A stretch of 64,000 nt of DNA from Acetobacteraceae bacterium (GTDB lineage Bacteria; Pseudomonadota; Alphaproteobacteria; Acetobacterales; Acetobacteraceae), in contig CANBXZ010000002.1 of the NCBI GenBank assembly GCA_947373495.1, forward strand, positions 1-64,000. The letters run 5' to 3'. This document shows, piece by piece, positions 17,001-53,155 of the stretch. A model generated the notes under the pieces. That model saw only the letters and a list, made by a program, of their open reading frames with translations, was not told where the DNA came from and ran no database searches. A program made the translations under genes and the position numbers. Each line of letters opens with the position of its first letter. Position 1 is the first letter of the stretch.

Positions 17001-18788
17001 GACGCGGTGACCGTGACCGGCCCCACCACCGGCACGCCGAACGAGGATGGCCAGGTGGTCAGCGTCAACGCCGCCGGCAACGCGGTGGATGTGGATGCGC
17101 ACCAGGGCGTGCAGGTGGTGGGCGTACCCGAGGCGCTGCCGCCGGGCGTGAGCTACGACGCCGCCACCCAGCGCTTCAGCCTGGACCCCAGCGATGCCGC
17201 CTACCAGCACCTGGCCCAGGGCGAGAGCCAGCAGGTGGTGGTGGAATACCAGGTGTTCGATGGCTACGTCGCGGTGCCGACCGCGGTGATCTTCACCGTC
17301 AGCGGCCGCAACGACACACCGATCGTCTCCGGCGTGGTGGATGCCGGGCCGGTGAGCGAGAATGCCGATGCGCTCGCGCTCAACCTGCTGGCCAACACCA
17401 CGGATGCCGATACCAGCAACGTGCTGGCGGTGGATGCAAAGGCGGGCGTCATCGCCAGCCTGGCCAGCGGCAGCTGGGCGGCGCCGCTGCAGTTCAGCCT
17501 GGCCGGCAACACGCTGGCCCTGGCGCCTGGCCAGTTCAACGCGTTGCGCGCCGGTGAGACGCTCGACCTCAGCTTCAGCTACGTGGTCACCGATGGCGAC
17601 AGCAGCAATGGCGCCGCCACCGCCAGCGCGCATGTCACCATCCTAGGCGCCAATGACGCGCCCATCGCCCTGGCGCTTTCAGCCAATCATGTGCTGGAAA
17701 ACAGCGCGGCCGGCGTGGTGGTCGGGCAACTCGCCGCCACCGATGCCGACCGTGGCGAGGTCTTCACCTACCAGCTGCTGAACAACCCCTCGGGCTTCTT
17801 CGCGCTGGCCGGCAACAAGCTGGTGGTGGCGGCGGGCGCCACGCTGGACTACGAAACCGCCACCAGCCACGGCGTCACGGTGCGTGTCACCGACTCTGCC
17901 GGCGCCAGCTTCGACCAGGCGTTCAGCATCGCGGTGGACAATGTGCTGGGCAAATCCATCACCGGCACCTCCAAGGCCGATGCCATGCTGGCCGGCACCA
18001 GCCTGGCCGCCACGGTCGAGAGCGACACCATGGACGGTGGCAACGGCAATGACAGCATCGACGGCCTGGGCGGCAATGACAGCCTGCTGGGCGGTGCCGG
18101 CAATGACAGCCTGGTGGGTGGCACGGGCGACGATGTCCTCGACGGTGGCAAGGATGTCGACATCCTGCTGGGGGGCGAGGGCAATGACCGCCTCGTGGTC
18201 TCCGGCACCGACAGCGGCACCGATGTGCTGAACGGCGGCGCCGGCACCGACACCCTGGTGGTGGCGGGCAAAGCGGCGGTCACCCTGGCCGGCTTCAACG
18301 CCGCCGCCTGGTCGATCGAGCTGTGGGAAGGCAATGGCGCGGGCGTGAACGGGACCGCGGCGGCCGAGACCTTCGACCTCTCGGGCATCGCGGCCTTCAC
18401 CGCCACCGGCCTCGGCTTCCTCGATGCCGGCGACGGCGCCGACACCGTCATCGGCAGCGCCTTCGCCGACGACCTGCGCGGCGGCGCCGGCAATGATGTC
18501 CTCCGCGGCGGTGCCGGCAATGATGTGCTGAAGGGCGGCGCCGGGGCCGACATCTTCGTGTTCAACCAGGGCAACGGCCAGGATATCATCGGCGACTTCG
18601 TGGCCGGCGCCGCCAATGGGCATGACGTCATCGACATCAGCACCGCGCTGTTCGCCAACTACACGGCGCTGAAGGCGGGCCTGTCGCAGGTTGGCGCCGA
18701 TGCGGTGCTGACCTCGGGCGCCGACAGCATCACCTTCAAGGCGGTTGCTGTTGCCAGCCTGGTGGCCAGCGACTTCATTTTTCACTGA
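14091..18788 (+). CDS. Giant VCBS/RTX calcium-binding adhesin, probable type I secretion substrate
   Basis: A 1565-residue surface or secreted protein. Residues 1-225 form a domain like choice-of-anchor L (LTSGTTPGTTN, FNLVFGSDEYPEW). Residues about 240-300 are calcium-binding RTX nonapeptides. From about 360 to 1190 run VCBS/cadherin-like repeats of roughly 100-150 residues, each ending in an NDAP-like tag (VTGINDAP near 459, VTGTNDAP near 614, VVGTNDAP near 750, ITGVNDAP near 862, then diverged NDAV, NDTP and NDAP copies near 966, 1070 and 1184). A cadherin-like domain covers 1190-1283, and more GGxGxD repeats lie at 1300-1360 and about 1440-1500. There is no Sec signal. The C-terminus ends in a type I-like hydrophobic tail (VASLVASDFIFH). 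The start ATG follows GAGGGG. No T1SS genes are in the window. Confidence 0.9.
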   Translation: MAIFTTIDTTTDLNAIAQALMPGAAGLTIDSSSLVLVNGPASAMLYDGSLGGLGIGSGLLLTSGTTPGTTNSMSYFGVSNEMAGDADLTAVVSTVFNTVSLDATTLTFNFTVIDASITGISFNLVFGSDEYPEWVNQFVDIGMVMVNGVNVAYFNHDPHAPLSVIGSNLAADYFINNANSVLPIEYDGVSAPLTIFAPVHLGLNTLKIGVADTGDHIYDSGLFISNMQATTLPITGMVLDRDGSSLDDSIQGSGAAEDIQGFDGNDDLKGGGGDDIFQAGIGDDSLQGDTGNDFMDGGAGTDIAMYTGNLADYSVWARPDGSYRIVDLRAGSPDGSDTLTQVESIHFADAVLDLATLAVSALAPADMPLAGTVEQSGAVLTVDAFATLADLAPDAVLTVEVPGALPPGVSYDAASHSFTLDPANQAYISLAAGEQQAVTVSYVVNDGTTLTAQAFQFLVTGINDAPIVTGPVSYAVDEFLSPLPSASGEVEVEIEVEVEVEKLGDDDLITEAAVPNSVKLLDHAADPDSLDVLAVVDLAATLPDGISYIHKDAAYTNTGYYGALVYHPAVDLLVINPKAAAFESLAQGEVLTITVEYGVSDGSVTVPTSAIFTVTGTNDAPQVSGIVTAATEEDGAVVTVDALAYATDIDHGAVLSVTNAPAGMAEEVNSGGGTGTHGADDTAAEVFADTSFDLTNLPPGVSFDAASNTFSLDPAAYQMLSAGEVRTVTVNYGVTDGMATVAAQAVFTVVGTNDAPVVSGPQSFTLTEDALAQVFNPLANTTDVDELDTLSVLTGPLPAGIELVGGLGEPGDDDLVGGQLLGFNPGAAAYQSLAAGEVTTVTWDYVVTDGQAMVATSTSFTITGVNDAPVIAVPAGATMLEDAAVVTVDALANATDVDHGAVLSVVGVPAILPDGITYDAATHSFSIDPGAAVFQQLAEGEVETLSVSYGVTDGIVTTQTQVNFTVVGVNDAVTVTGPTTGTPNEDGQVVSVNAAGNAVDVDAHQGVQVVGVPEALPPGVSYDAATQRFSLDPSDAAYQHLAQGESQQVVVEYQVFDGYVAVPTAVIFTVSGRNDTPIVSGVVDAGPVSENADALALNLLANTTDADTSNVLAVDAKAGVIASLASGSWAAPLQFSLAGNTLALAPGQFNALRAGETLDLSFSYVVTDGDSSNGAATASAHVTILGANDAPIALALSANHVLENSAAGVVVGQLAATDADRGEVFTYQLLNNPSGFFALAGNKLVVAAGATLDYETATSHGVTVRVTDSAGASFDQAFSIAVDNVLGKSITGTSKADAMLAGTSLAATVESDTMDGGNGNDSIDGLGGNDSLLGGAGNDSLVGGTGDDVLDGGKDVDILLGGEGNDRLVVSGTDSGTDVLNGGAGTDTLVVAGKAAVTLAGFNAAAWSIELWEGNGAGVNGTAAAETFDLSGIAAFTATGLGFLDAGDGADTVIGSAFADDLRGGAGNDVLRGGAGNDVLKGGAGADIFVFNQGNGQDIIGDFVAGAANGHDVIDISTALFANYTALKAGLSQVGADAVLTSGADSITFKAVAVASLVASDFIFH

Positions 18789-37911: not shown

Positions 37912-38856
37912 TCACGGCAGCAGACCTGTTTCGAACTTCCCGGCCGTGGTGCCATGCGCAACGGGCAAGGGCGGCAGCGCCTGCCGGACCAAGGCGCCGA
38001 GTTCCACCATCTGGGCCTGCAACTGCGCGACGCTGGCCCGCAGCTCGGCCAGGCCGGGTGTCTCCGTCGCGGCCGGGGCAGGCGCTGCTCCGGCCGCCAC
38101 CGGCATCGCCTCGGCGGCCACCACCTCATGACGGCTGGCGACGATGGTGAACAGGCTGAGCGGCCCCGCGGCTGATTGCTGCGTGTGGATGCTCTGGCGG
38201 AAGTGGCGGAAGCCCATCACCCGGAGGAATTCCACGAACAGGTCGGGGCTGAAGTGCCACCAGGTGTGCCAGTTCTGGTTTTCGGCGGTGGGCAGCAGGT
38301 GGCAGGCACGCAGCCCGTCCAGCGCCGGGTTGTACATGTCGGTGATGATGAGGGTGTTGGCGCGGCGGGCGCATTGTTCAACGATGCGCAGCGGGCTGTG
38401 GCAATGCAGCAGCACGCAGGCCAGCACCGCGACGTCGAACTGGCCGAGTTCGGCAGGAATGTCGTAGGCGCTGGCATAGGCCAGGCGGGCCCGCAGCCGC
38501 AGCGTCGCGTGGGTGAACCAGAAGGAATTCCGCAGCCGCTGCATGGTGCCGACCCGGTCCTGCATGATCGGCGCCAGCGTCTCGGCCGGGTAGGGCACGT
38601 AGTCCCAGCCGGCCTCGGGCGGCATTTCCAGCGCCAGCACCGCGGCGCCGCGGTGCTCCATTTCCGCGGTCAGGAAGCCGCTGGCCGGGCCAACCTCCAG
38701 CACGGAGCGACCACGGAAATCGAACTGGCCGAGGTATTCGTCCACCTTGCCCCGCAGGTCCCACTCGCCACCCACCCGGCCATGCCCGGGCAGGTCCATC
38801 ACGTGGTAGAAATGGCAATCCTCGGGCGCGATTCCGGTTTGTGGCTGGGCGTACAT
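37912..38856 (-). CDS. SAM-dependent methyltransferase with C-terminal helical tail
   Basis: A 314-residue methyltransferase starting MYAQPQTGIAP. The SAM motif SVLEVGPASGFLTAEME is at residues about 52-68, followed by FDVAVLACVLLHCHSPLRIVEQ and ANTLIITDMYNPAL. Residues 270-310 form an Ala/Leu-rich helix (LAELRASVAQLQAQMVELG) likely to be a coiled coil for oligomerisation. A longer start at 38910 lacks a ribosome binding site. It is divergent from the methyltransferase-glycosyltransferase fusion gene and convergent with the hybrid kinase gene. The glycan-locus position suggests sugar or lipid-carrier methylation; the acceptor is unknown. Confidence 0.85.
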   Translation of the reverse strand: MYAQPQTGIAPEDCHFYHVMDLPGHGRVGGEWDLRGKVDEYLGQFDFRGRSVLEVGPASGFLTAEMEHRGAAVLALEMPPEAGWDYVPYPAETLAPIMQDRVGTMQRLRNSFWFTHATLRLRARLAYASAYDIPAELGQFDVAVLACVLLHCHSPLRIVEQCARRANTLIITDMYNPALDGLRACHLLPTAENQNWHTWWHFSPDLFVEFLRVMGFRHFRQSIHTQQSAAGPLSLFTIVASRHEVVAAEAMPVAAGAAPAPAATETPGLAELRASVAQLQAQMVELGALVRQALPPLPVAHGTTAGKFETGLLP

Positions 38857-39060
38857 CTGGCGGCTCCGGCAGCACTGGTGCCAAGGCGGGAAAGCGGGTG
38901 CCTGCATCATCCGACGCAGGGTCCAAGGCCCTTAGCCGCTGCCGGGGTGGTCGTCTATCCATGCCGTCTGGCGGCGTGTAGAAGCGGCCGCGCCAGGGTT
39001 TCGGTGCTCGCCGCCGCCGGCGAGCCCATCGTGCCGGCCAGGCGACGCGGGAGAGTGTGG

Positions 39061-42000
39061 GTGGGTGAAATTTTCAACCGGGCCTTGCCCGCGAAGCCCT
39101 TGGCCTGGACCGGTGAGCGGCTGACGCAGGACGCCGGCATGCAGGTGGAACTGGAGCATCTGCATCGCTACTTCCTGGCGCGCGAGGTGGCCCGCGGGCT
39201 GGACGTTCTCGATGTTGCCGCCGGAGAGGGCTATGGCAGCGCCTTCCTGGCGCAGACCGCGCGTTCGGTGGTGGGGGTCGACTGCGACGCCGCCAGCGTG
39301 GCCCATGCCAGCGCGGCCTATGGTGCCGCCAACCTGCGGTTCCTCTCCGGCGATGCACGACGGTTGCCGCTGCCGGATGCGGCCTTCGACCTGGTCGTCT
39401 CGTTCGAGACGCTGGAGCATTTCGGCGAACACGATGCCTTCCTGGCGGAAGTGCGTCGCGTGCTGCGCCCGGGCGGCCGGCTGCTGCTGAGCACGCCGGA
39501 GCGCGACACCTATTCCCCGGCCGACACCGCGGCAAACCCCTATCATGTGCGGGAATTGTCCCGCGTGGAGTTCGGCGCGCTGCTGCGCCGCCACTTTGCC
39601 CATGTCGCGGTGCTCGGGCAGCGGCCGATGCTGGGTTCCGCCATTTTTCCCGAGGAGCCGGCCCAGGCCGCCGGCCTGCTGACCTTCGAACAGCGCGGTC
39701 CGGCACGGTTCGAGGCTTCGGCCGGCCTGCCGCGCGCGGTCTACCTGCTGGCACTGGCATCGGACCACGACCTGGCCGCCTTGCCCGGCAGCCTTTATGT
39801 GCAGACCGGCCAGGTGGAAGCCACGGTGCAGGCCGAGGCCGCCAGGCTGGCCGGGGCGGAACAGGCCGAACGCGCGGCACTTGAGCAGGACCTGCAGGGA
39901 TTGCGCGCCACCATGGCGGTGCTGCGCAACAGCCTGAACACAGCCGGGGCCGGGCGCGCCCAGCTGGAAGCGGACAAGGCCGCGGCGCTTGCCAGCCTGG
40001 CCCAGGCGGAGGCCAGGCTGCGGGCTACCGAGGCCGGGCTGGCCCAGGCGGAGGCCGCGCTGCGCGCTTCCCAGGCCCGGCTGGCCGAGGCCGCGGCCGC
40101 CCTGCACGGCAGCCAGGCGATGCAGCGGTCGATGCAGGCCGAGCTGCAGGACACCCGGTCCCGCCTGGCCAAGGCGGAAGCCTATGGTCATCACGTCCAG
40201 CAGGAATACGCCAAGGGCGTCGCCGCCCTGGCCAGCGGCGCCAGCTATGCGCGGCGGGTGGAACAGGAACTGGCGGTGCAGCGTGGCCGGGCCGACCACG
40301 CGGCGCCATTGTTGCAGGCGCTGCTGCTTTCCCGCAGTTGGCAGGCAACGCTGCCATTGCGGCAATTGGCCACCGCCTATCCCGTGGCGCGGCGGACGCT
40401 GCGCCTGGCTGGCGCCATGCTGCCCTGGGTGCGCAATCCGCCGGCCACGGCGCCCGATGCCACGCGGGTGGCACGCGCGTCGTCCGGGCGTGGGCGTGCC
40501 GAGCCGGACGCCGAGCCGGATGCCAAGGCGGCGCTGACCCAGGCGTTGCGGGACGAGCTGTCGCGCTTTCTGCAAACCGGGGAGCGGCTGGTGTTCCCGG
40601 TGGTGGCCGCGCCGGCGGTTTCGGTGCTGGTGGTGCTGTACAATCAGGCCCATCTCACCCTGCGTTGCCTGCAGGTGCTGCGGGCGCAGCAGCAACAGGG
40701 CGTGGCGCTGGAAGTGGTGCTGGTGGACAACGCCTCCACCGATGCCACCAGCCAGGTGCTGGAACGGCTGGACGGCGTGCGGGTCATCCGCAACCAGGCC
40801 AATCTGGGCTTTCTGCGCGGCACCAACCAGGCGGCTGCGGCGGCAGGTGGCCGCAACCTGCTGCTGCTGAACAGCGACGCCTTTCCCCGCCCCGGCGCCC
40901 TGGCTGCCGCCCTGGCGACGTTGGAGGCGGGGCCCCGGATCGGGGCAGTGGGGGCGCGGTTGGTCCTGCCCTCGGGCCTGTTGCAGGAAGCCGGCAGCAT
41001 CGTCTGGGCCGATGGCAGCACCCAGGGCTATGGCCGCGGCCTGCCGCCGGAGGCCGGCGCGGTGATGTTCCGGCGCGAGGTGGATTATTGCTCGGGCGCC
41101 TTCCTGCTGACCCCGCGGGCGGTGTGGCAGCGGCTGGGCGGCCTGGATGACGCCTATGCCCCCGCCTACTATGAGGAAACCGACTATTGCCTGCGCCTGC
41201 GGGAGGCCGGCCTGCGGGTGGTGTATGACCCCGCGGTGGCGGTGGACCATTATGAGTTCGGCAGCGAGGCGAAGCAGGGTGACGCGCTGGAGGCGATGCA
41301 GCGCAATGGCCGCCGCTTCCGCGAACGCCATGCCGCCACGCTGCTGCGGGACCACCTGCCGCCCGGGCCACACAACCTGCTGCGGGCGCGGGACGCCGCC
41401 GGCAGCCGGGGCCGCAAGCTGCTGGTGATCGACGACCTGCTGCCGTTGCAGGTGAACGGGGCCGGCCTGCCGCGCGCCCGCGCCATGGTGGCCGGCGCGG
41501 TGGCGGCGGGCTGGTCGGTCACGCATTATCCGCTGCACCAGCCGGAGGTGGACTGGGACCGGTTGCGGCGCGAATTGCCGGCGACGGTGGAGGTCATCGA
41601 CCATCACGGCCTGCCCGGGCTGGGGCAATTCCTGGCGGAGCGGGCGGGCTACTTCGACGTGGTGCTGGTCAGCCGGCCGCACAACATCACGGCGCTGTGG
41701 CAGGCGCTGGCCGGTCGGCCGGAACTGCTGGGCCAGGCCCGGGTGATCTACGATGCCGAGGCGATCTACGCCGCGCGGGAGGTGGCCCAGGCGGCGCTGG
41801 CCGGCCGGCCCTTCGCCCCGGCCGAGGCCGAGCGCATGGTGGCCGAGGAAATCCGCCGCTGCACCGCCGGCGTGCATGTGGTCACCTGCGTGACCGAGGC
41901 GGAATCCGCCCTGTTCCGCCGCCACATGGCACCGGAACAGTCGCTTTACCGGCTGGCGCATGCCGCCGGGGCGGCGGTGGCCGCGCCGGGGCATGCGCCG

Positions 42001-43485
42001 CGCCGGGGCTTCCTGTTCATCGGCCGCCTGCTGGAACGGGAGGCGCCGAATTGGCGGGGACTGAGCTGGTTCATCCGCGAATGCTGGCCACTGGTGCGCC
42101 AGGCGCTGCCCGGCGCCGAGCTGACGGTGGTGGGGCAGTTGCACCCGGACCATGCGGCGCTGGCGGTGCCGGGCGTGCGGCTGCTGGGGCCGGTGGAGAA
42201 CCTGCAACCCCTGTACGATGCCGCGCGCGTCTTCCTGGCGCCGGTACAATTCGCCGCCGGGGTGCCGATCAAGATCGTCGAGGCCACCGCGGCCGGGCTG
42301 CCGACCGTCTGCACCACCCTGATGGCGCGGCAACTGGGTTGGCAGGACGCCGATGCGCTGGCCGTGGCGGATGAGGCCGCTGCCCTGGCCACCCAGGCCG
42401 TGGCGCTGCATGAGGATGCCGCGGCGTGGCAGGCCATGCTCGGCCGCGCCCAGGCGCTGCTGCGGCGCGACTTCGACCCGGAAGCGTTCCAGGCCAACCT
42501 GGCGGCGGCGCTGGAAGGGCGGGCCGCCCCGGTGGAAGCAACGGCGCAGTCCCATCGGCTGGCCCGGGTGGAAGCGGTGTGGGGCAAGGCGCCGCCCACC
42601 GACGAAGCCGCCCAGTGGGCTGCCTACCCAACCTCGCATCCGGTGGTGCGGGGCGAGATGAATCGCCGCGCCACCGGCCAGCCCGACCAGGACGGATTCG
42701 GGGCGCTGCGCGAGCTGCTGCTGCGCCAGGGCCAGCGCCTGCCGCTGGCCCGCGCGGCGTCCTTGTGCTGCGGCACCGGCGGGCTGGAACGCCGGCTGCT
42801 GGCGGAAGGGCTGCTGGCCCATTGCATCGGCTACGACCTGGCCCATGGCGCGCTGGAACTGGCGCGCGCGGCGGCGCAGGCGGCTGGCCAGGCGGCGGCG
42901 CTGGAGTATCGCCAATGCGACCTGGAGGCGACCGGGCTGGGCGAGCAGGGGCTGGACCTGGTGCTGGGCTACCAGGGGGTGCACCACCTCAGCCGGCTGG
43001 AATTCGTCTTTGACAACGTCCATGCCGCCCTGCGGCCCGGCGGTATTTTCCACCTGCAGGAGTTCGTCGGGCCGGACCGCTTCCAATGGACCGACCGCCA
43101 GGTGGCGGAGATGACCGCCTGGCTGCGCAGCGTGCCGGAACGCTACCGTCGCACCCCGGAAGGCCAAGTGAAGGCAGCGGCCGGCCGGGCCAGCCTGGCG
43201 GAAATGCTGGCGCACGACCCGACCGAGGCCGCCCGTTCCTCGATGATCGAACCCCTGTTGGCGGAACGCTTCGAGATCCTGGAACGCCGGCCACTGGGGG
43301 GCACGCTGGCGATGATGGCGCTGGCCGGCATCGCCCATAACTTCAACCCCGCGGTCGCCGAGGATGTGGCGCATCTGGAACGCCTGCTGCACCGGGAGGC
43401 CGAGCTGATGGCCACCGGCGAACTTGGCAGCGACTTCGTCATGATCACGGCGCGCAGGCGGGGCCAGTTGATGGCGGACAGCTAG
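39061..43485 (+). CDS. Multi-domain glycan enzyme: methyltransferase, coiled coil, GT2, GT4, methyltransferase
   Basis: A 1474-residue cytoplasmic protein. Residues 30-235 form a methyltransferase (DVLDVAAGEGYGSAF at 48-62, SFETLEHFGEHD). Residues about 257-415 are an Ala/Glu-rich coiled coil. Residues 515-770 are a GT2 glycosyltransferase (VSVLVVLYNQ near 520, VLVDNASTDATS, LLLNSDAFP, CSGAFLLTPRAVW, EETDYCLRLREAG). Residues 787-1155 form a GT4 domain (LFIGRLLEREAPNWRGL near 983, KIVEATAAGLPTVCT). Residues 1165-1474 are a second methyltransferase (SLCCGTGGLERRLL near 1232). The start chosen is GTG 39061 with GGGAGA at 39049-39054; the frame is open far upstream without domain content. It probably adds and methylates two successive sugars on one acceptor. 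Confidence 0.9.
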   Translation: MGEIFNRALPAKPLAWTGERLTQDAGMQVELEHLHRYFLAREVARGLDVLDVAAGEGYGSAFLAQTARSVVGVDCDAASVAHASAAYGAANLRFLSGDARRLPLPDAAFDLVVSFETLEHFGEHDAFLAEVRRVLRPGGRLLLSTPERDTYSPADTAANPYHVRELSRVEFGALLRRHFAHVAVLGQRPMLGSAIFPEEPAQAAGLLTFEQRGPARFEASAGLPRAVYLLALASDHDLAALPGSLYVQTGQVEATVQAEAARLAGAEQAERAALEQDLQGLRATMAVLRNSLNTAGAGRAQLEADKAAALASLAQAEARLRATEAGLAQAEAALRASQARLAEAAAALHGSQAMQRSMQAELQDTRSRLAKAEAYGHHVQQEYAKGVAALASGASYARRVEQELAVQRGRADHAAPLLQALLLSRSWQATLPLRQLATAYPVARRTLRLAGAMLPWVRNPPATAPDATRVARASSGRGRAEPDAEPDAKAALTQALRDELSRFLQTGERLVFPVVAAPAVSVLVVLYNQAHLTLRCLQVLRAQQQQGVALEVVLVDNASTDATSQVLERLDGVRVIRNQANLGFLRGTNQAAAAAGGRNLLLLNSDAFPRPGALAAALATLEAGPRIGAVGARLVLPSGLLQEAGSIVWADGSTQGYGRGLPPEAGAVMFRREVDYCSGAFLLTPRAVWQRLGGLDDAYAPAYYEETDYCLRLREAGLRVVYDPAVAVDHYEFGSEAKQGDALEAMQRNGRRFRERHAATLLRDHLPPGPHNLLRARDAAGSRGRKLLVIDDLLPLQVNGAGLPRARAMVAGAVAAGWSVTHYPLHQPEVDWDRLRRELPATVEVIDHHGLPGLGQFLAERAGYFDVVLVSRPHNITALWQALAGRPELLGQARVIYDAEAIYAAREVAQAALAGRPFAPAEAERMVAEEIRRCTAGVHVVTCVTEAESALFRRHMAPEQSLYRLAHAAGAAVAAPGHAPRRGFLFIGRLLEREAPNWRGLSWFIRECWPLVRQALPGAELTVVGQLHPDHAALAVPGVRLLGPVENLQPLYDAARVFLAPVQFAAGVPIKIVEATAAGLPTVCTTLMARQLGWQDADALAVADEAAALATQAVALHEDAAAWQAMLGRAQALLRRDFDPEAFQANLAAALEGRAAPVEATAQSHRLARVEAVWGKAPPTDEAAQWAAYPTSHPVVRGEMNRRATGQPDQDGFGALRELLLRQGQRLPLARAASLCCGTGGLERRLLAEGLLAHCIGYDLAHGALELARAAAQAAGQAAALEYRQCDLEATGLGEQGLDLVLGYQGVHHLSRLEFVFDNVHAALRPGGIFHLQEFVGPDRFQWTDRQVAEMTAWLRSVPERYRRTPEGQVKAAAGRASLAEMLAHDPTEAARSSMIEPLLAERFEILERRPLGGTLAMMALAGIAHNFNPAVAEDVAHLERLLHREAELMATGELGSDFVMITARRRGQLMADS

Positions 43486-43561
43486 CCGCCGCCATGCACG
43501 TCGTGGTCCGACAATCCTCGGCGATGGCGGCCGACCTCGGCATGCCAGGGCGGCTGCGTTC

Positions 43562-44947
43562 GTGAGCTTCGCCTCGATCGGCTTCCTGGTCTGGTTCCTG
43601 CCGCTGGTGCTGCTGGCGCAGTGGCTGCTGCCCTGGCGCAACGCCACGCTGTTGCTGGCCAGCCTGGCATTCTACGCCTGGGGCGACCCGGCGCACCTGC
43701 CCGTGTTGCTGTTCTACATCGTCCTGAACTGGGGGCTGGGGCGGCTGCTGGGGCGCCAGCCGGGATGCCGCCGGCTGTTGCTGCTGGGCCTGGGGCTGAA
43801 CCTGCTGCCATTGTTCTGGTTCAAGTATGCCGGTTTCCTGGCCGGCCTGGTTGGCTTCGCCGTGGTGCCGCCGCAACTGCCGCTGGGGGTTTCCTTCTTC
43901 GCCTTCCAGGGTATCTCCTACCTGGTGGACATCCATCGCGGCCTGGTTCTGCCGCAGCGCCGGCTATGGGTGTTCGCGCTGTACAAGGCGCTGTTCCCGC
44001 TGCTCATCGCCGGGCCGATCCTGCGCTACCGCGACATCGAGGGGCGGCTGGAACGGCGGCGCACCAGCCTGCTGCGCTGGCGCCATGGCATGACCCTGTT
44101 CGTGTTGGGGCTGGGGCAGAAGGTGCTGCTGGCCAATACCCTCGCGGTGCCGGCCGACCAGATCTTCGCCCTGCCAGCGGCGCAGCTGGGCCTGGCCACG
44201 GCCTGGTTGGGTGTTGTCTGCTATCATCTGCAATTGCTGTTCGACTTCTCCGGCTATTCGACCATGGCGATCGGCATCGGCCATATGCTGGGCCTGCGCT
44301 TCCCGGCCAATTTCGACCGGCCCTACCTGGCCCAGTCGGTGACCGAGTTCTGGCGTCGCTGGCACATGACGCTTTCGGCCTGGTTCCGCGACTATGTCTA
44401 CATCCCGCTGGGAGGCAACCGGCACGGCGCCTGGCGCACCGCTGGCAACCTGTTGCTGGTCTACATCCTGTGCGGGCTCTGGCATGGCGCTGCCTGGACG
44501 TTCCTGCTGTGGGGCATGTTCCAGGGGGCGCTGATGCTGCTGGAACGCCTCGGCTTCGGGGCGGTGCTGGCCCGGGCCTGGCGGCCGCTGCGCCACCTCT
44601 ACCTGCTGTTGTCGCTGCTGGTGGGGTGGGGGCTGTTCCGCAGCGAATCCCTGGCAACCACCTGGAGCATGTGGAGCGCCATGGCCGGCCTGAACCAGGG
44701 TGCGGCCGAACCGGCGCCGCTGGGCGCCTTCCTGTCGGCACCGGTGATGACGGCGCTGCTGGTTGGCGCGCTGCTGGCTACCCAGCGCCTGCCGCGCGGG
44801 CCGGGTTGGGTGAGCGGCAAGGCTGGCGGTGCGCTGCTGCTGTGGCGCGACGCGGGCGCCTATGCCGCGGTGCTGCTGGTCTTTGTCGCCTCGCTGGCCC
44901 GGGTGGCGAGCGGTACCCACAACCCCTTCATCTACTGGCGCTTCTGA
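43562..44947 (+). CDS. MBOAT-family O-acyltransferase (AlgI-like)
   Basis: A 461-residue polytopic membrane protein of the MBOAT family. It starts at GTG (VSFASIGFLVWFLPLV), then shows LASLAFYAWGDP, LPLGVSFFAFQGISYLVDIHRG, DFSGYSTMAIGIGHMLGLRFP, the conserved VTEFWRRWHMTLSAWFRDYVY stretch (read FWRRWHMTLSAWFRDYVYIP), and the active-site His in CGLWHGAAWTFLLWG. AlgI-like proteins pass acetyl groups across the inner membrane for O-acetylation of a polysaccharide in the periplasm. The next gene, overlapping by one base, encodes the AlgX/AlgJ-like partner. Its position behind the glycosyltransferase fusion ties it to the same glycan. Confidence 0.92.
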   Translation: MSFASIGFLVWFLPLVLLAQWLLPWRNATLLLASLAFYAWGDPAHLPVLLFYIVLNWGLGRLLGRQPGCRRLLLLGLGLNLLPLFWFKYAGFLAGLVGFAVVPPQLPLGVSFFAFQGISYLVDIHRGLVLPQRRLWVFALYKALFPLLIAGPILRYRDIEGRLERRRTSLLRWRHGMTLFVLGLGQKVLLANTLAVPADQIFALPAAQLGLATAWLGVVCYHLQLLFDFSGYSTMAIGIGHMLGLRFPANFDRPYLAQSVTEFWRRWHMTLSAWFRDYVYIPLGGNRHGAWRTAGNLLLVYILCGLWHGAAWTFLLWGMFQGALMLLERLGFGAVLARAWRPLRHLYLLLSLLVGWGLFRSESLATTWSMWSAMAGLNQGAAEPAPLGAFLSAPVMTALLVGALLATQRLPRGPGWVSGKAGGALLLWRDAGAYAAVLLVFVASLARVASGTHNPFIYWRF

Positions 44948-46131
44948 TGCCACCGCGCCGCGATGCCAGCCGAGCGCGCCGCTGGCTGCAAGCCGGCTTC
45001 GTCGGCGTGCTGGCCCTGCTGGCGCTGCTGCCGCTGCTGGCGCAGCTGGCTGGCTTCAATGGCTGGCGTGCCGGGGAAAACCGGGCCCAGGCGCCGATGC
45101 CGGCCGTGCCGCGGGATGCTGCGGGCCTGCGGGCCTGGCCGCGCGTGGCGGATGCCGCCGTGAACGACCGCTTCGGCCTGCGCACGCAACTGGTTTCGCT
45201 GCATGACCAGGCCTTGTTCCGCCTGTTCGGCGCCTTCGCCGTGCCCCAGGTACTGGCCGGGCCAGGGGGGCGCCTGTTCGTCTCCAGCGACGGGGCCAAG
45301 TCGCTGATCCGGTACGCCTGCGGGCGAGGCCTGCCGGTCGAAACCGTGCCGGATCTGGCGGGGCAGGTCGAAGCCCTGTTCCGCGGCCTGCAACAGCGGG
45401 TGCCGCGCGCCGACCTGTTGCTGGCGCCCAGCGCCCCGGTGCTCTATCCGGCCGAGCTACCTGCCTGGCTGCGGCGTGACTGTGCGGCGGGCACGCCGAT
45501 CGCACGCCAGGTGATGGACCGACTGCCGGCCGAATGGCGCGAGCGGTCCTTCTTTCCCGTCGCGCCGCTGGTGGCCCCTGGCCTGCCCGGCCCCGCCATT
45601 CCGCGCCGCTTCATGCACTGGGATGGCGTCGGGGCAGGGCGCGCCGTCGCCGCCTGGGCCGAGGAGAGGCGTCACCTGCAACGCCGGCTGGAGGTGCCGG
45701 CGGCCTGGCAGTGGCGCCCCTCCGACCTCAGCGGCTTCTTTCCCGGCCTGCGCCTGGGGTCGATGGCGCTGGAGCCGGCGGCGGAGGTGCCGGGGGTGGA
45801 ACCATGCCTTGGCTGGCCCTGCTTCCCCGGCTTCGCCGACATCGCCAGCGTGCTGGTGGATGTGCGCCGGTTTCGCGCCGCCCAGCCCGGTGCCGGCCGC
45901 TTGCTCGTATTGTCGGATTCCTTCGGCGCCGCGGCTGCGCCCTGGCTGGCGCGCTACTACGGCGAGGTTTGGCAGTTCACGCTGAACCATGCCGAGCAGC
46001 TCTCGCCGGGGCAACGCAGCCGGCTCGCGCAGGCGCTGCTGGAGGGATATCGTCCGGACCAGGTGCTGGTGTTGATGATGGACGCCTCGATGACCCTCAC
46101 CTTGCCGCGGCTGCTCGGCCTGCTGGAATGA
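44947..46131 (+). CDS. AlgX/AlgJ-like SGNH O-acetyltransferase
   Basis: A 394-residue periplasmic protein held by an N-terminal signal anchor (WLQAGFVGVLALLALLPLLA). The region AVNDRFGLRTQLVSLHDQALFRLFG is the start of the AlgX/AlgJ acetyltransferase domain. The SGNH catalytic Ser is in LLVLSDSFGAAAAPWLARYYGEVW. The usual Asp-His pair of the AlgJ family would be expected near FFPVAPL...RFMHWDGVGA, where an MHWDG segment (HWD) is present. It would accept acetyl groups from the MBOAT protein and place them on a polymer. ATG 44947 overlaps the MBOAT stop (TGATG). Confidence 0.85.
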   Translation: MPPRRDASRARRWLQAGFVGVLALLALLPLLAQLAGFNGWRAGENRAQAPMPAVPRDAAGLRAWPRVADAAVNDRFGLRTQLVSLHDQALFRLFGAFAVPQVLAGPGGRLFVSSDGAKSLIRYACGRGLPVETVPDLAGQVEALFRGLQQRVPRADLLLAPSAPVLYPAELPAWLRRDCAAGTPIARQVMDRLPAEWRERSFFPVAPLVAPGLPGPAIPRRFMHWDGVGAGRAVAAWAEERRHLQRRLEVPAAWQWRPSDLSGFFPGLRLGSMALEPAAEVPGVEPCLGWPCFPGFADIASVLVDVRRFRAAQPGAGRLLVLSDSFGAAAAPWLARYYGEVWQFTLNHAEQLSPGQRSRLAQALLEGYRPDQVLVLMMDASMTLTLPRLLGLLE

Positions 46132-46339
46132 CGCGGACACTGGCAGGCAGGACGGAGAACGGGCGACGCACCCGCTGCCGTGCTGCCGCGGGAAGTCCGG
46201 CCAAGGTCCCTGGCACTGCCAGCGGCATGGCATTATTCTTCCACGGGCTTCGCCATTTCCTCAGCCGCGCATGAATTGCAGCCATGAAACACGCCCGTCG
46301 ATCGGAATGCCAAGCGCGGGGTGGGCGCATCCACGCGAC

Positions 46340-46723
46340 ATGAAGACCCAGGCGGCGCGGGCTGTTCGGCATTTGGCTGATGGCCATCCAGGGCTGGCGC
46401 TGGTTGCCGCCGGCATGGCGAGGGCACGGGCCGAACGGCTGTCCTATGCCTATCGGGTTGACCGGCTGTGGCCGACACGCGTGCTGCGGCTGTCGCTGTA
46501 TGTGGCGATCCGGCTGGGGGCGCGCCTGCCCGTCTGGGCCAACATGGCGGCCTGGAACGCACACCGGCTGCCGATGCTGCACAGGCCGCTCAGCGTTGCC
46601 TACCGGCGCAGCCTGCGCCCCTACCCCGCCCAGCCGCCACAAGGTGTCGATCATGCTGGCCCCGCCCAGCGCCGCATCCAACGCCGGCTTGAACGGTTGC
46701 GCCTGACCGCAGGCCTGGGCTGA
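46340..46723 (+). CDS. Uncharacterised 127-residue protein of the glycan locus
   Basis: A basic, Arg/Leu-rich protein starting MKTQAARAVRHLADGHPG. It has amphipathic helices and one mildly hydrophobic stretch (VLRLSLYVAIRLGARLPVWANM). I do not recognise a family. A further start upstream is open to 46271. Its stop codon overlaps the ATG of the double GT4 gene (TGATG at 46721-46725), so translation of the two is likely coupled, and this is the best evidence that it is a real gene. It may be a small accessory or membrane-associating partner of the glycosyltransferase. The 208 bases before it show no gene. Confidence 0.5.
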   Translation: MKTQAARAVRHLADGHPGLALVAAGMARARAERLSYAYRVDRLWPTRVLRLSLYVAIRLGARLPVWANMAAWNAHRLPMLHRPLSVAYRRSLRPYPAQPPQGVDHAGPAQRRIQRRLERLRLTAGLG

Positions 46724-49641
46724 TGCATGTCGTGCTGGACCTGCAGGTGGTGCAGGACGAGGCGGTGAGCCTCGACGTCGCCTTGCGGGCGCTGGACCTG
46801 GCGCTGGTGCTGGCCGAGGCACCGTGTGGCCACCGGGTCACCGCCCTGCTGAACGGAACCAGGCCGGCCGGGCTGCATGCCCTGCAACAGAAGCTGCGGC
46901 GGGTCCTGCCGCCGCACGCCATCGTGCTGTGGCACGCCCCGGCCACGCCGGCCCCGGGCCCCGGGACGCTGGCAGCGGCAGCCCTGGTCCGGGCGGCGGC
47001 CGTGGTCGCGCTGGCGCCCGACCTCCTGCTGCTCGGCAGCGCCGATTCCGGGATCACCGCCTGGCCCACCGCCTGGCCCTCTCCTGTCACGCTTGCCATG
47101 GCGGACCTGTTCGAGCCACCCGAAGCGAGCGGCAAGGCGCCCTGGGAGGTGCTGGTGGGGCGCATCGCGGGGGCACCCGCACGCAGGGCCGCGCCGGCCA
47201 GGCGGCTGAGGCTGGCGCATCTGGGCCCCTTGCCGCCGCAGCCGACAGGTGTTGCCGACGCGACCGCCTCCGTGTTGCCGGCGCTGTGCCGGTACTACGA
47301 CATCACGCTGTTCGTGCCCGAACCGGACCAGGTGGCGGCGCCATTGCGCGCCGCCTTCCCGGTGCGGCCCACCACTGCCTTTGCGCGCCTGGCGAGCGGC
47401 TTCGACCGCATCCTTTACCAGTTGGGCAATTCGCCGTTCCACCACGACCCGGCCATGCTGCTTGTCGACCACCCGGGCGTGGTGCTGCTGCACGACACGA
47501 TGCTGGGCGACCTGACGGCCCATCTTGCCGGCGCCGAACTGGGCGCGGCGTTGTTCGCGGCCGAGGGCTGGCCCGCCTACCTCTGCCTGGCCGAACACGG
47601 ATTGCAGGCGGCCATCCGCGCCCATGGCTGCCTGGCGCCGCTGTTGCGCGAGCAAATGGGCGCCATCGTCCACTCGACCTTCGGCGTTGCACAGGTTCAT
47701 GCCGCCGGCGATGTGCCGGTTTGGCAGGCACCGCTGCCGCTGCTCTATGGCGCCCCCGGGCAGCCCGCCCTGCTGCCGCGCCGCGCGGCGCGAACGGCGC
47801 TCGGCATTGCCGCCGACGAGATGCTTGTGGTGTGCTTCGGCGCGGTCACGCCGGCCAAATGTCCTGGCCTGCTGGTGGAGGGCTTCGAGCGCGCATTCGC
47901 TGCCACCGGCAGGGCACGCCTGGTCTTCGTCGGCGCCTTGCTCGACGGCAGCGCGCCTGACTCCACCAGGGCAAGGGTGGGCGTGACCGGGCGGGTCACC
48001 CCTGAGGCCTGGCGGCACTGGCTGGCGGCCGCGGATATCGCGGTGCAACTTCGCCGCAACTCGCGTGGCGAAACCTCCGGTGCTGTCATGGATGCCATGG
48101 CGGCGGGCCTGCCGACCATCGCCAACGCCCATGGCGCCATGGCGGAACTGCCGCCCGACGCGGTTCTGCTGCTGGCCGATATCCCGACGCCGGACGAGTT
48201 GGCGCAGGCGCTGCGGGTGTTGGCCGAGGATGCCGGATTGCGCCATCGGCTCGGCGAGGCCGGGCGGCGGCATGTGACCACGGCCCATGCGTCCGAGGCG
48301 GCGGCCGCTGGCTATGCGGCGGCGATCGAGGCGGCCTACGCGCTGCCATCCGGTCGGGTCGCCGCCGACATGCTGCTGAAGGCTCTCGCGCCCTCTCGGC
48401 TGCCGGCCGACCTGCTGGCGCAGGCTGTCGCGGCAACCATGCCGATGCACGGCATTCGGCGCCTGCTCATCGATGTCAGCATCGTCGCCAGGCAGGATAT
48501 CGGCACCGGCATCCAGCGGGTCACGCGCGAAATCGCCCGCCGCCTGCTGTCCGGGCGGGTGCCCGGCTGGCGGGTGGAAGCGCTGCGCGGCGATAGGCGC
48601 GCGTTGCTGCTCGCGCGTGAATGGGTGGCCGGGCTGCTGCGCGTGCCATGCCCGGCGCCCGATGACCTGGCCGAGGCCGGGGCCGGCGATCGCATCCTGC
48701 TGCTGGATTTTCCGGGCATGATCGAGGGCGATGACATGCTGGCATTGCGGCAGGCGCAGGCTCGCGGCGCCGAGTTGGTCCTGGTCCTCTACGACCTGCT
48801 GCCGATATTGCACCCCGAATGGTTCCCGCCCCTCAGTGCCACCGTCACCGCCGCATATCAGCGGGCGTTGCTGGGCTGCGTGGACCAGGTGATCTGCATC
48901 TCCCGCAGCGTGGCGCTGGAACTGCACGCTGCCCTCGCCTCCGGCGAGGTGCAGCGCGCCCGGGCGCTGGAGATCGGCTGGTTTCACCTGGGGTCGGATT
49001 TCCGCTCCGATGTCGCCGGCGCGGCCCCGGCCGAGGCGGTGCGTGTCGCCCTCGCCGCCATGGCGCGGATGCCCAGCCTGCTCATGGTTGGCACTGTCGA
49101 ACCGCGCAAGGGCCATGCCCAGGCGCTGGCGGCCTGCGAGCGGCTGTGGGCCGCTGGGCTGGATGCCGCCCTTGTCGTCGCCGGCAACCAGGGCTGGATG
49201 ACCGAGGCGGTATGCGACCACCTGGCATCGCACCCGGAGGCCGGGCGGCGCCTGCACTGGCTCCGCCATCCCAGCGACAGCGACCTGGCGGCGCTGTACC
49301 AGGCATCGACCGGCCTGCTCGCTGCTTCCCTGGGCGAAGGCTTCGGCCTGCCGCTGGTGGAAGCCGCACGCATCGGCAAGCCGATCCTCGCCCGCGATAT
49401 CCCGGTGTTTCGCGAAGTCACCGCAGGGCAGGCCTGTTGGTTCGCGGGCGAGGATGCCGCCTCGCTCGCCGCCGCGATCGGCGATTTTTTCCTGGCGGGC
49501 CGGGCGGGGACACTGCCGGGCTCCCAGGCCAGGCGCATCCTCAACTGGGACGAGAGCGCGGCACAGCTGTTCGACCAGGTGATGGTCGCGCCGTGGCCGC
49601 TACGCTGGGCGCCGGCGGCCGCTTCCGGGCCGCCCGGATGA
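46723..49641 (+). CDS. Large glycosyltransferase with two GT4 domains
   Basis: A 972-residue cytoplasmic protein. Residues 1-160 start MHVVLDLQVVQDEAV and look like a small extra domain of unknown role. Residues 165-560 are a first GT4-like domain (CFGAVTPAKCPGLLVEGF near 370, VMDAMAAGLPTIANAHGA near 457). Residues 580-965 are a second GT4 domain opening with IVARQDIGTGIQRVTREIAR, a typical N-terminal motif of rhamnosyl/mannosyl GT4 enzymes, then GTVEPRKGHAQAL near 789 and the nucleotide-sugar motif SLGEGFGLPLVEAARIGKP near 868. Two successive glycosyl transfers are implied. It abuts the convergent FkbM gene without a gap. Confidence 0.9.
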   Translation: MHVVLDLQVVQDEAVSLDVALRALDLALVLAEAPCGHRVTALLNGTRPAGLHALQQKLRRVLPPHAIVLWHAPATPAPGPGTLAAAALVRAAAVVALAPDLLLLGSADSGITAWPTAWPSPVTLAMADLFEPPEASGKAPWEVLVGRIAGAPARRAAPARRLRLAHLGPLPPQPTGVADATASVLPALCRYYDITLFVPEPDQVAAPLRAAFPVRPTTAFARLASGFDRILYQLGNSPFHHDPAMLLVDHPGVVLLHDTMLGDLTAHLAGAELGAALFAAEGWPAYLCLAEHGLQAAIRAHGCLAPLLREQMGAIVHSTFGVAQVHAAGDVPVWQAPLPLLYGAPGQPALLPRRAARTALGIAADEMLVVCFGAVTPAKCPGLLVEGFERAFAATGRARLVFVGALLDGSAPDSTRARVGVTGRVTPEAWRHWLAAADIAVQLRRNSRGETSGAVMDAMAAGLPTIANAHGAMAELPPDAVLLLADIPTPDELAQALRVLAEDAGLRHRLGEAGRRHVTTAHASEAAAAGYAAAIEAAYALPSGRVAADMLLKALAPSRLPADLLAQAVAATMPMHGIRRLLIDVSIVARQDIGTGIQRVTREIARRLLSGRVPGWRVEALRGDRRALLLAREWVAGLLRVPCPAPDDLAEAGAGDRILLLDFPGMIEGDDMLALRQAQARGAELVLVLYDLLPILHPEWFPPLSATVTAAYQRALLGCVDQVICISRSVALELHAALASGEVQRARALEIGWFHLGSDFRSDVAGAAPAEAVRVALAAMARMPSLLMVGTVEPRKGHAQALAACERLWAAGLDAALVVAGNQGWMTEAVCDHLASHPEAGRRLHWLRHPSDSDLAALYQASTGLLAASLGEGFGLPLVEAARIGKPILARDIPVFREVTAGQACWFAGEDAASLAAAIGDFFLAGRAGTLPGSQARRILNWDESAAQLFDQVMVAPWPLRWAPAAASGPPG

Positions 49642-51480
49642 TCAGGCGGCGGCCGGGCCGAGCAGGTGCCGCGCCAGGCTGGGCTTGCGATAGATCACCG
49701 CGGCGACCAGGGCCTGCGCGGCGCGGGTAGCGGTATCCGCGGCACGACGAAAGAACACCGCCTCGGCCCACAGCAGCCGGTCGGCGGCCGGAGCATCGCC
49801 CGTGGCGGGGTAGTGGTATCGCGCCGGGTGCAGCAGGTCGACCAAGTCGAAACCCTGGCCTGCAAGCAGGTCGTGGATTGCAGGAAACAGCGGCTGGCCG
49901 ACATAGATCGGCGCGAACGCGACCTCGCAATGCACCACCGCGGTGCGGGCCAGCGTGGCGCCGCCATTCCGCAGCGCCATCGCCTCGCTGCCTTGGATAT
50001 CGAGCTTCAGGAAATCAACCGCGGCCGCCGGCACGACATCGTCCAGCCGGTGTGTCTGCACTGTCTCGGTGCGCAGGGTCCGCAGGGTCTGCAGATGATT
50101 GAAGGCGGCATTGTGCGCCAGGTTCAGCGGAAAGAGCGAGGAGGTGGCGTCGTCGTTGTTGATATGCAGCACGTGCCGCCCGCCATCGGCGATCGCGTAG
50201 GGCAGCAGGGTCAGGCCGTCCTGCGCCTCCGCGGCCCGGCGTTCGGCGATGCGCCGTTCCAGCGGGTCGAAGCCGATGATGTCGAGCGGCGTCAGTTGGG
50301 CCAGCGCATCATAGACATGCGCCTCGGAGGCCAGCATCTGCGCGCCGATATCGACGATGCGCGGCCGGCGGCCCAGCCGCAGCAATGCCTGCCGCACCAA
50401 GGCCGGGTCTGCCTGCACCGGCGCCGGCGCCGCGCCGAGATGGCCGCGGGCTTCCGGGCTGGCCAGGATGTCCAGGGCCACCCGCAGCGCCCCGTCGGGG
50501 GCATGCAGATGCGCCAGCCAGCCGGCCATCCCCTCCGGCTCCGGCTCACGCCCAAGGCAGGCGAGGTACAGCGCCCGCACGAAGCTCTCCGGCGCGATCG
50601 GTGGCGTGGGGTCCGGCGCCGCCTCGCGCACGGCCCGGCCGCGCTGCAGCCGGCCCAGCACATGGCCGGGGGCGGACAGGAACCGCTGGGCCAGGGTTGG
50701 CGGCGGCGCGCGGGAAGCGCCCAGCCGTGCCTCCAGCGATCGCGCCAGGGCCTCGGCGGCGGCGATACGCCGCTCGGCCTCGGCGTCGTGCCGGCGGAAG
50801 TTGTCGAACACGTTGGGCGGGGTGGCGAAGCTGGCCGCACGGTCGCTGCTTTCCTCCCGCAGGAACCAGGCGTTCAGCCCGTCGAACAGAACCGGCCGGT
50901 AGCCGGCCGCCAGCATCAGCGCATGCCAGGGGCCATCGCTGCGTTCGGTGCTCTGCGGCCTGGTCGCCTCGATCAGCACGACTTCAGGGCGATGGCGCCG
51001 CCAGTCGGCGCCGCGAATCACAGCCTCCTCGGCCCCCTCGACGTCGATCTTCAGGAAATGGATGTGTCGGCCGGGCAGATGCGCGTCCAATACCTCGGCC
51101 AGCGGCAGCACCTCCACCTCGATGTCGGCGGCGCGCAATTCCGCCTGGTTGGGGATGCGGGGCACGTGCTCATGCATCAGCGTGCTGGCCTGCAGCACCT
51201 GGGCCGCGTCGCGATACACCCGCAGCACCTGCTGGCCGCGTGCCGCCCCGAGGGCCAGGTTCAGGTTGATGTCGCGCGGCCGGGCCTGCGCCAGGCGCGC
51301 GAAGACCGGGCTCGGCTCGATGTTGATGCCCTGCCACCCCAGATCGTAGAAGGCCTTGGTGACGGATTCGGCGACCGGGTCCCAGGCACCGGCATCGACA
51401 TAGGTGCCGTGGCGGATGTCGGCGAACACCCGGCGCAGGATCACATCCTCGAAATTCTGCGCGTAGCTGACAAACGTCAT
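49642..51480 (-). CDS. FkbM-DUF4214-FkbM double methyltransferase
   Basis: A 612-residue protein with two FkbM-type methyltransferase domains. The first (residues 1-215) opens FVSYAQNFEDVILRRVF and has TYVDAGAWDPVAESVTKAF and HFLKIDVEGAEEAVI. A short coiled segment (EAERRIAAAEALARSLEARL) leads to a DUF4214-like module at about 298-342 (FVRALYLACLGREPEPEGM, then ILASPEAR). The second FkbM domain (372-560) has IVDIGAQMLASEAHVYDAL and DFLKLDIQGSEAMAL. FkbM enzymes O-methylate sugar hydroxyls. DUF4214 is usually found in secreted calcium-binding or surface proteins, so its presence between two methyltransferases is unusual. The start at 51480 is the first Met of the FkbM motif. Confidence 0.88.
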   Translation of the reverse strand: MTFVSYAQNFEDVILRRVFADIRHGTYVDAGAWDPVAESVTKAFYDLGWQGINIEPSPVFARLAQARPRDINLNLALGAARGQQVLRVYRDAAQVLQASTLMHEHVPRIPNQAELRAADIEVEVLPLAEVLDAHLPGRHIHFLKIDVEGAEEAVIRGADWRRHRPEVVLIEATRPQSTERSDGPWHALMLAAGYRPVLFDGLNAWFLREESSDRAASFATPPNVFDNFRRHDAEAERRIAAAEALARSLEARLGASRAPPPTLAQRFLSAPGHVLGRLQRGRAVREAAPDPTPPIAPESFVRALYLACLGREPEPEGMAGWLAHLHAPDGALRVALDILASPEARGHLGAAPAPVQADPALVRQALLRLGRRPRIVDIGAQMLASEAHVYDALAQLTPLDIIGFDPLERRIAERRAAEAQDGLTLLPYAIADGGRHVLHINNDDATSSLFPLNLAHNAAFNHLQTLRTLRTETVQTHRLDDVVPAAAVDFLKLDIQGSEAMALRNGGATLARTAVVHCEVAFAPIYVGQPLFPAIHDLLAGQGFDLVDLLHPARYHYPATGDAPAADRLLWAEAVFFRRAADTATRAAQALVAAVIYRKPSLARHLLGPAAA

Positions 51481-51532
51481 GCGGCGATGCGCCGCGGATG
51501 GCCGGCAGGACTGCGCATCGCTCGGGACATGC

Positions 51533-52825
51533 TCATGCACGCACACGCTGGGCGCCCTGAAACCAGAAGGCCTGTTCCGCGACCAGCCGCAGATAGCATG
51601 CTCCTCCCTCCAGCGCCTGGGCCTCGAACCGCCAGTCCAGCACCGCCTCGCCACCCGGCGGTACCGCGTGGGGGAGCGGGCACCGATTGGCAGCCTCCGC
51701 CTGGTCGGTCGCGGTGGCGTGCCGGGTCAGCGCCAGGGTGACACCTTGGCGCAAGGGCGGCACATGCGCGGGCCACAGCGTGCGGCCGCTGTTGCGCAGC
51801 CGAACCCGTACCACAAGCCCGCCCTGGTCCCAGGCGGCCGCAACAATGGTCATCTCGGCCGCGGTCTGCCCGGGGTCTGCCGCCGCCGGCCGCAGGCCTC
51901 CCGCCATGGGGCGCCGCGCCAGCAGCACATGGGCCGCGCTGGCCGGCGTGCTGGCCACCTGATGCAGTTCCATATGCGCCTGTGCCTCCGCGAACATCCC
52001 GTTCACCCCAAGATGAAACTGGATATCCTCAAAGCCGGCAGCTTGCAGTACGTGCCGCAGATAAGGCCGCGTGAAGGGGCTCTCCAGCGTGCCGTAGCGG
52101 GCCATCTCGGCGTCCAGGCCGCGCTCCAGTTGCCCATCGCCCGGGGTCCAACTGCCTTCGCCGCTGACCGAAAGACAGCCGCCCGGCTTCAGCAGCGCGA
52201 ACACCTTGCCCATGGCGGCGCGCTCGTCGATGACATGGTGCAGGGCCTCGTGGAACATCACGGCATCCACCTGGGCAAGATACGCCGTCAGGTCGGCTTC
52301 CTCGAACGTGGCGGTGATGCAGGTGGCCGTATCCGTCGCCACCCCGCTCATGGCCTCGAACCCCTGCAGCCGCCGCCGCGCCAGGTCGTTCATCACCTCG
52401 CTCGGGTCGAGCGCCACCACGCGATAGCCGAGGCCCACCAGGATCTGTGTCACCCATCCCGGGCCGGAGCCGACATCCATGACCAGCGCGCCCGGTGGAA
52501 GCCGCATGGCCTGGACGGCGTTGAGGATCGCGTACATGCCGTGGAAGAAATGCGGATGCCCCTCGGTCGGGTCATACGGCTTGCGACGCATCCAGCCGAA
52601 GCCCTCGCTGTCGGCCAGGGCCTGCGGATACCGCTCGGCTGCGGAACGCAAGGCGGCGAAGTCCTGGCCCGCCGCCGGCACATAGCGCTTCGGGCCGGTG
52701 AAATCGGCTGGGTCAGCAGGTGCTGGTGGCCGGGGCGCCACGGTTCCGCCGGTTCGAGGCGGCAGCAGCCCGAACCTGCACGACAGCCAGGCGGGCAATG
52801 ACCGCCGCATGCGTTCAACGCTCAT
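51533..52825 (-). CDS. SAM-dependent methyltransferase with C-terminal beta domain
   Basis: A 430-residue protein. The methyltransferase core has VMDVGSGPGWVTQILVGLG at residues about 115-133, VDAVMFHEALHHVIDERAA and LKPGGCLSVSGEGSW. Residues 335-430 are separate: AEMTIVAAAWDQGG followed by VRVRLRNSGRTLWPA and LDWRFEAQALEGG read like an immunoglobulin-like beta-sandwich often fused to glycan-processing proteins (compare the Wzt C-terminal fold). The start at 52825 has AAGGAT upstream; the longer frame is compositionally non-coding. It is in the same direction as, and 52 bases before, the FkbM gene, so the two are probably co-transcribed. Confidence 0.82.
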   Translation of the reverse strand: MSVERMRRSLPAWLSCRFGLLPPRTGGTVAPRPPAPADPADFTGPKRYVPAAGQDFAALRSAAERYPQALADSEGFGWMRRKPYDPTEGHPHFFHGMYAILNAVQAMRLPPGALVMDVGSGPGWVTQILVGLGYRVVALDPSEVMNDLARRRLQGFEAMSGVATDTATCITATFEEADLTAYLAQVDAVMFHEALHHVIDERAAMGKVFALLKPGGCLSVSGEGSWTPGDGQLERGLDAEMARYGTLESPFTRPYLRHVLQAAGFEDIQFHLGVNGMFAEAQAHMELHQVASTPASAAHVLLARRPMAGGLRPAAADPGQTAAEMTIVAAAWDQGGLVVRVRLRNSGRTLWPAHVPPLRQGVTLALTRHATATDQAEAANRCPLPHAVPPGGEAVLDWRFEAQALEGGACYLRLVAEQAFWFQGAQRVRA

Positions 52826-53155
52826 CGACCGGATCCTTGCCGCCGCGACAGCCCCTGCACCTTCGTCATGCGGCGTTCTCCGTGCTGGACGGGTGCCGCG
52901 GCGACCGCGGCGCCCGCCCGTATTCCTGCGGGAGGATGCAGCCGGACGGCCGGAAAGGACACCCTGGACGGGGTGTTGCGACGGTATCGCAAGGGCGAAG
53001 GGCCATCGGGGAACGGGGCCCGAGGCTGTCGCGCCACGGCCGCGCCCAAGGTGCAGGCGTTCCGCGGGCTTTCCCGGCTCGTGGGCAGGATGCGGGAAAG
53101 GACCTGGCGGCGGGCCTGGAATGTCCAGCCACATGAGTTGGCAGGACTACATATG
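52826..53155. other. Intergenic region before the tRNA gene
   Basis: About 330 bases with no supported gene. Frames entering it from both sides lack ribosome binding sites. It should contain the promoter of the methyltransferase pair on the minus strand. Confidence 0.4.

Follow-up and report, generated by a model that had tools for sequence, protein, structure and literature searches.

We found that the window, a 64,000-nucleotide stretch of DNA from an Acetobacteraceae bacterium, encodes a real, conserved and rare five-module protein, in which a methyltransferase (MT1), a predicted coiled coil, a GT2 and a GT4 glycosyltransferase and a second methyltransferase (MT2) follow one another in a single chain (Table 1). 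Judged by its anatomy, this build resembles the single-chain glycan polymerase-terminators WsaE and Klebsiella pneumoniae O7 ORF6 more closely than the two-protein WbdA/WbdD system. What is new with respect to the single-chain polymerase-terminators described is the fusion of a second methyltransferase to the polymerase end.

The gene (39061-43485, forward strand) is an uninterrupted frame of 1474 codons, and one G+C codon-position phase was held over 39001-43500. The same gene was chosen by a codon-usage gene caller, with a start that was off by only a few bases. We also considered an antisense ORF of 1571 codons (38932-43647, reverse strand) as a real gene; given the single codon phase and the choice of the gene caller, it is non-coding and a by-product of high G+C. 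That a frame or assembly error joined separate genes has a negligible probability, as the codon phase is the same throughout, two independent five-module orthologues (loci L021 and L022) refute such an artefact, and nothing was found in its favor. The first-pass annotation had named a frame error, or separate genes elsewhere, as grounds for abandoning the megaenzyme; instead, both orthologues carry the fusion, though MT2 is a separate gene beside the core in two other loci (L048 and L065).

Table 1. Position of the five-module gene, its modules and its neighbors in the window.
Feature	Coordinates	Strand	Basis or remark
Five-module megaenzyme gene	39061..43485	+	1474 aa, GTG start; Pfam, codon phase, gene caller, orthologues L021/L022
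MT1, class I SAM methyltransferase, residues 1-200	39061..39660	+	Pfam, structural matches
Predicted continuous helix/coiled coil, residues 250-424	39808..40332	+	AlphaFold2, periodicity
SRSWQATLPLR motif, end of coil	40330..40362	+	Common to relatives with N-terminal modifiers
GT2 (GT-A) module, residues 513-760	40597..41340	+	Pfam, conserved motifs, structure comparison
GT4 (GT-B) module, residues 770-1160	41368..42540	+	Pfam, structure comparison
MT2, second class I SAM methyltransferase, residues 1180-1474	42598..43482	+	Pfam, phmmer, AlphaFold2
Divergent methyltransferase gene	37912..38910	-	Orthologue (69%) at same place in L021
MBOAT O-acyltransferase	43562..44947	+	Orthologue (76%) directly 3' of megaenzyme in L021
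MBOAT partner	44947..46131	+	N-terminal hydrophobic segment, NDRFGLR and LSDSFG motifs; orthologue (68%) at same place in L021
Protein with two GT4-type domains, 972 aa	46723..49641	+	Pfam
FkbM-type methyltransferase protein with DUF4214	49642..51654	-	Start uncertain
Methyltransferase gene	51533..53134	-	Start uncertain

The module order proposed in the first-pass annotation was borne out by Pfam, phmmer and AlphaFold2, and the domain-by-domain profile search and structure prediction suggested there recovered all five modules and confirmed their general folds. Pfam detected two separate class I methyltransferase domains (Methyltransf_11 in two stretches; best stretch, residues 50-142), a GT2 domain (residues 521-635, E 9e-20) and a GT4-type Glyco_trans_1_4 domain (residues 983-1119, E 2e-21), and phmmer located MT2 at residues ~1230-1343. 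MT1 carries the N-terminal motif TGER...EH.HRY and motif I as VLDVAAGEGYG; its structural matches had Z scores of ~17-18 and included, among many tied rows, CgnL (7pd7; Z 17.6, rmsd 2.6, 165 aligned). The GT2 module, which keeps the NSD and YYEETDY motifs, matched a GT-A fold with a Z score of ~24 to GalNAc-T2, and residues 784-1155 (model 285-655) matched a GT-B fold, with TarM as best hit (Z 29.5, rmsd 3.3, 338 aligned). Two glycosyltransferases of different folds, as claimed earlier, are thus predicted by structure comparison. These Foldseek and VIA-align lists convey general folds only (class I methyltransferase, GT-A and GT-B), with many tied rows and with donor and acceptor not readable from them; the absence of WbdD and WsaF from the lists carries no weight.

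AlphaFold2, run on 51 sequences, predicted GT2, GT4 and MT2 as mostly well-folded modules with a mean pLDDT of 87. The N-terminal model, built on an alignment of six sequences, showed the MT1 fold followed by a single predicted helix of ~175 residues (residues 250-424), with a pLDDT of ~75-86 in its mid-part and a length of ~26 nm if straight. Its hydrophobic period was best at 3.52, with a modest heptad signal that was reached by 48 of 1000 shuffles. Neither Pfam nor AlphaFold2 revealed a kinase domain in the megaenzyme, and the gap between MT1 and the helix comprises only ~50 residues.

We searched 84,980 species genomes for orthologues. Another Acetobacteraceae metagenome-assembled genome (L021) has the complete five-module arrangement, with 73% identity in the best segment (query 1-1467) and a start codon that aligns with the GTG of the window gene; Belnapia sp. 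F-4-1 holds a second orthologue with the same arrangement (L022). Because these two carry the five modules, the sequence comparison establishes the fusion as real and conserved. Between the window and L021, dN/dS was 0.10 for MT1, 0.34 for the coil, 0.30 for GT2, 0.27 for GT4 and 0.17 for MT2, values that indicate purifying selection on each module; constraint is weakest in the linker that follows the coil (0.52). Among 100 sampled family genomes, MT2 was present in three (E <= 1e-30), and only the window's own genome had a frame long enough for the whole chain. Belnapia sp. F-4-1 contains two copies of the locus (L022 and L024), which are 97.4% identical over 4.1 kb. The L024 frame stops short of MT2, whose region is spread across other frames; the five-module form can therefore lose its last module.

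With GT2 and GT4 side by side in a single polypeptide and with the conserved motifs, the window protein belongs to a widespread GT2-GT4 core cassette, of which the fetched loci contained 75 proteins. A modifying enzyme precedes the core in 24 of them: 5 have an MT1-type N-terminus, 17 a Methyltransf_24-type and 2 a sulfotransferase-like one that scored below the Pfam cut-off. Three other cores begin with a PIG-L deacetylase, and some end C-terminally in MT2 or RgpF. Most forms with an N-terminal methyltransferase or sulfotransferase-like domain have, ahead of GT2, a spacer that lacks helix breakers as well as an S-x-SWR-x-T-x-PLR motif. Measured coil lengths differ widely (166, 184, 190, 88 and 128 residues; range 88-190). 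Homologues of both Wzm and Wzt lay in the same stretch in 11 of the 24 modifier-bearing loci versus 4 of the 51 other cores (Fisher p = 3e-4, a value overstated by close relatedness of some loci; flank lengths also differ). In locus L025, wzm and wzt are directly followed by a gene for a four-module MT1-coil-GT2-GT4 protein.

A rival reading is that the enzymes of one pathway were joined merely to favor co-expression or channelling, in which case their order would carry no meaning. We consider this improbable. Modules are indeed swapped freely among relatives, where the N-terminal slot is taken by Methyltransf_11, Methyltransf_24, a sulfotransferase-like domain, PIG-L or GT2 and the C-terminal one by MT2 or RgpF; in L048 and L065, MT2 is a gene of its own adjoining one for a Methyltransf_24-coil-GT2-GT4-RgpF protein, and the L024 copy lacks an intact MT2 frame. 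Yet a modifier placed N-terminally, ahead of spacer and glycosyltransferases, in almost a third of the cores (24/75) is not random, and purifying selection acts on every module.

Characterized systems provide a framework for this layout. In these, a coiled coil places the terminator at its distal end and the polymerase at the opposite one (PMC11231755), and it can determine how long the chain becomes (PMC11231755, PMC3482155). The window protein shares the single-chain version, that is, an N-terminal enzyme of terminating type, a helical spacer and two glycosyltransferases in one polypeptide. WsaE, the S-layer glycan polymerase/terminator of Geobacillus stearothermophilus, likewise joins an N-terminal methyltransferase, implicated in a 2-O-methyl cap, to two rhamnosyltransferases, and the gene order wzm-wzt-wsaE is reported (PMC2943079). 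Compared by description, WsaE thus matches the window protein in domain order and L025 in following wzm-wzt, whereas no second methyltransferase is described in WsaE and the window gene is unlinked to wzm-wzt. Klebsiella O7 ORF6, a methyltransferase-kinase terminator with polymerase glycosyltransferases, also combines an N-terminal methyltransferase, a central coiled coil and two C-terminal glycosyltransferase modules (PMC11231755); CgnL, its closest methyltransferase structure as reported there, is among the top (tied) matches of MT1. However, a kinase and a carbohydrate-binding domain separate methyltransferase and coil in O7 ORF6, and both glycosyltransferases are GT2 modules, whereas the window protein has ~50 residues at this gap, GT2 followed by GT4, and a C-terminal second methyltransferase. 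WbbB of Klebsiella O12 unites polymerase, terminator and coiled coil in one chain as well, but its terminator is a Kdo glycosyltransferase instead of a methyltransferase (PMC11231755).

The first-pass annotation had likened the protein to WbdA/WbdD while calling it differently built. The difference holds, but the nearest precedents are the single-chain WsaE (PMC2943079) and O7 ORF6 (PMC11231755), WbdA and WbdD being separate proteins. In Escherichia coli O9a, a coiled coil similarly holds the methyl-capping enzyme apart from the polymerase, though with a kinase and two or more mannosyltransferase modules divided between two proteins (PMC3482155). We rejected a WbdD-type terminator for the window protein: no kinase precedes the coil, and WbdD was not among the PDB sequence hits.

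By analogy with WsaE and O7 ORF6, we tentatively favor, with a confidence just short of even, a single-chain glycan polymerase-terminator with an extra methyltransferase, in which capping is combined with a molecular ruler. The GT2 and GT4 modules, in polymerase position by anatomy, would form two different linkages on a lipid-linked chain at the cytoplasmic face of the membrane. MT2 would be best placed to methylate sugars during chain synthesis, because it is fused directly after GT4. MT1, in terminator position at the far end of the predicted helix, would O-methylate the non-reducing end, so that growth would stop when the lengthening chain comes within reach of MT1. We infer this division of roles between MT1 and MT2, as we would any sugar identity. 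After export, the neighboring MBOAT protein and its probable partner might O-acetylate the chain in the periplasm; the partner is probably AlgJ/AlgX-like to judge from its motifs, and Pfam and PDB sequence searches gave no match for it. Several observations speak for this polymerase-terminator: the recurrent layout of modifying enzyme, helical spacer, S.SWR.T.PLR motif, GT2 and GT4, often beside wzm-wzt; the preservation of five modules in one frame in three genomes under purifying selection; the gene order of L025, which matches wzm-wzt-wsaE (PMC2943079); and the distal position, away from the polymerase, that terminating enzymes take on the coiled coil of characterized systems (PMC11231755).

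Against it count the export genes and the coil. The 64 kb window contains no wzm-wzt pair, and neither do the L021 and L022 stretches; the carbohydrate-binding domain Wzt_C (PF14524) had no match in the window's genome (G000, 85% complete) or in the L021 and L022 genomes. The best Wzm-like pair detected in the window's genome lies on a different contig, and its Wzt is short. In these three five-module genomes, capping-coupled export is therefore hypothetical. The coil varies in length among relatives, and its heptad signal is modest. The earlier proposal of a spacer between capping and polymerizing enzymes thus gains support at the family level, where modifier-coil-GT2-GT4 proteins often occur beside wzm-wzt, but not for the window gene, which has no neighboring exporter and no detectable Wzt_C in its genome.

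The unlinked exporter, the many methyltransferases and the variable coil length leave room for a decorator that does not polymerize. In such an oligosaccharide assembly line, GT2 and GT4 would add one defined sugar each, MT1 and MT2 would methylate one each, and the helix would only dimerize the protein or keep its modules together, with no control of length. We regard this as a serious rival, quite possible if somewhat doubtful. The roughly six methyltransferase domains, the MBOAT protein and the further GT4 domains at the locus fit a short, heavily decorated glycan, and with several more methyltransferases at hand both MT1 and MT2 could be plain decorators; the unconserved coil length and the missing exporter and Wzt_C point in the same direction. 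In turn, the association of N-terminal modifier, spacer and GT2-GT4 with wzm-wzt in relatives, and the match of the layout to known polymerase-terminators (PMC11231755, PMC2943079), argue against an assembly line and for the polymerase-terminator.

A bolder version of the polymerase-terminator, which we think rather unlikely, would have MT2 methylate within the chain at the polymerase end and MT1, held by the ruler at its far end, cap the terminus. One polypeptide would then govern how a surface glycan is synthesized, in what pattern it is methylated and how long it grows, in organisms that export this glycan without a terminus-reading Wzt domain. If the polymerase-terminator reading holds, the building, patterning and capping of surface glycans would be open to study in one polypeptide. 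The wider family, in which N-terminal methyltransferase or sulfotransferase-like caps are swapped onto a common GT2-GT4 core with differing spacer lengths, offers a natural series in which to test the coiled-coil ruler idea outside the O antigens of enterobacteria.

Around the gene, ~six methyltransferase domains, one MBOAT and four glycosyltransferase domains are crowded into 15 kb (37912-53134), a gene content that suggests a heavily methylated and acetylated glycan. The neighboring divergent methyltransferase has an additional methyltransferase domain fused to it in L021 (7729-9819, reverse strand); the window copy has none. Farther upstream in the window, a protein of 1565 residues that has cadherin-like domains as well as RTX calcium-binding repeats (14091-18788, forward strand) is probably a secreted adhesin. 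Finally, in Verrucomicrobia and Kiritimatiellota, proteins encoded directly 3' of wzm-wzt (L060, 8516-11947; L066, 12465-15911) combine a sulfotransferase-like domain, a helical spacer and GT2-GT4, with a sulfate cap possibly replacing the methyl group.
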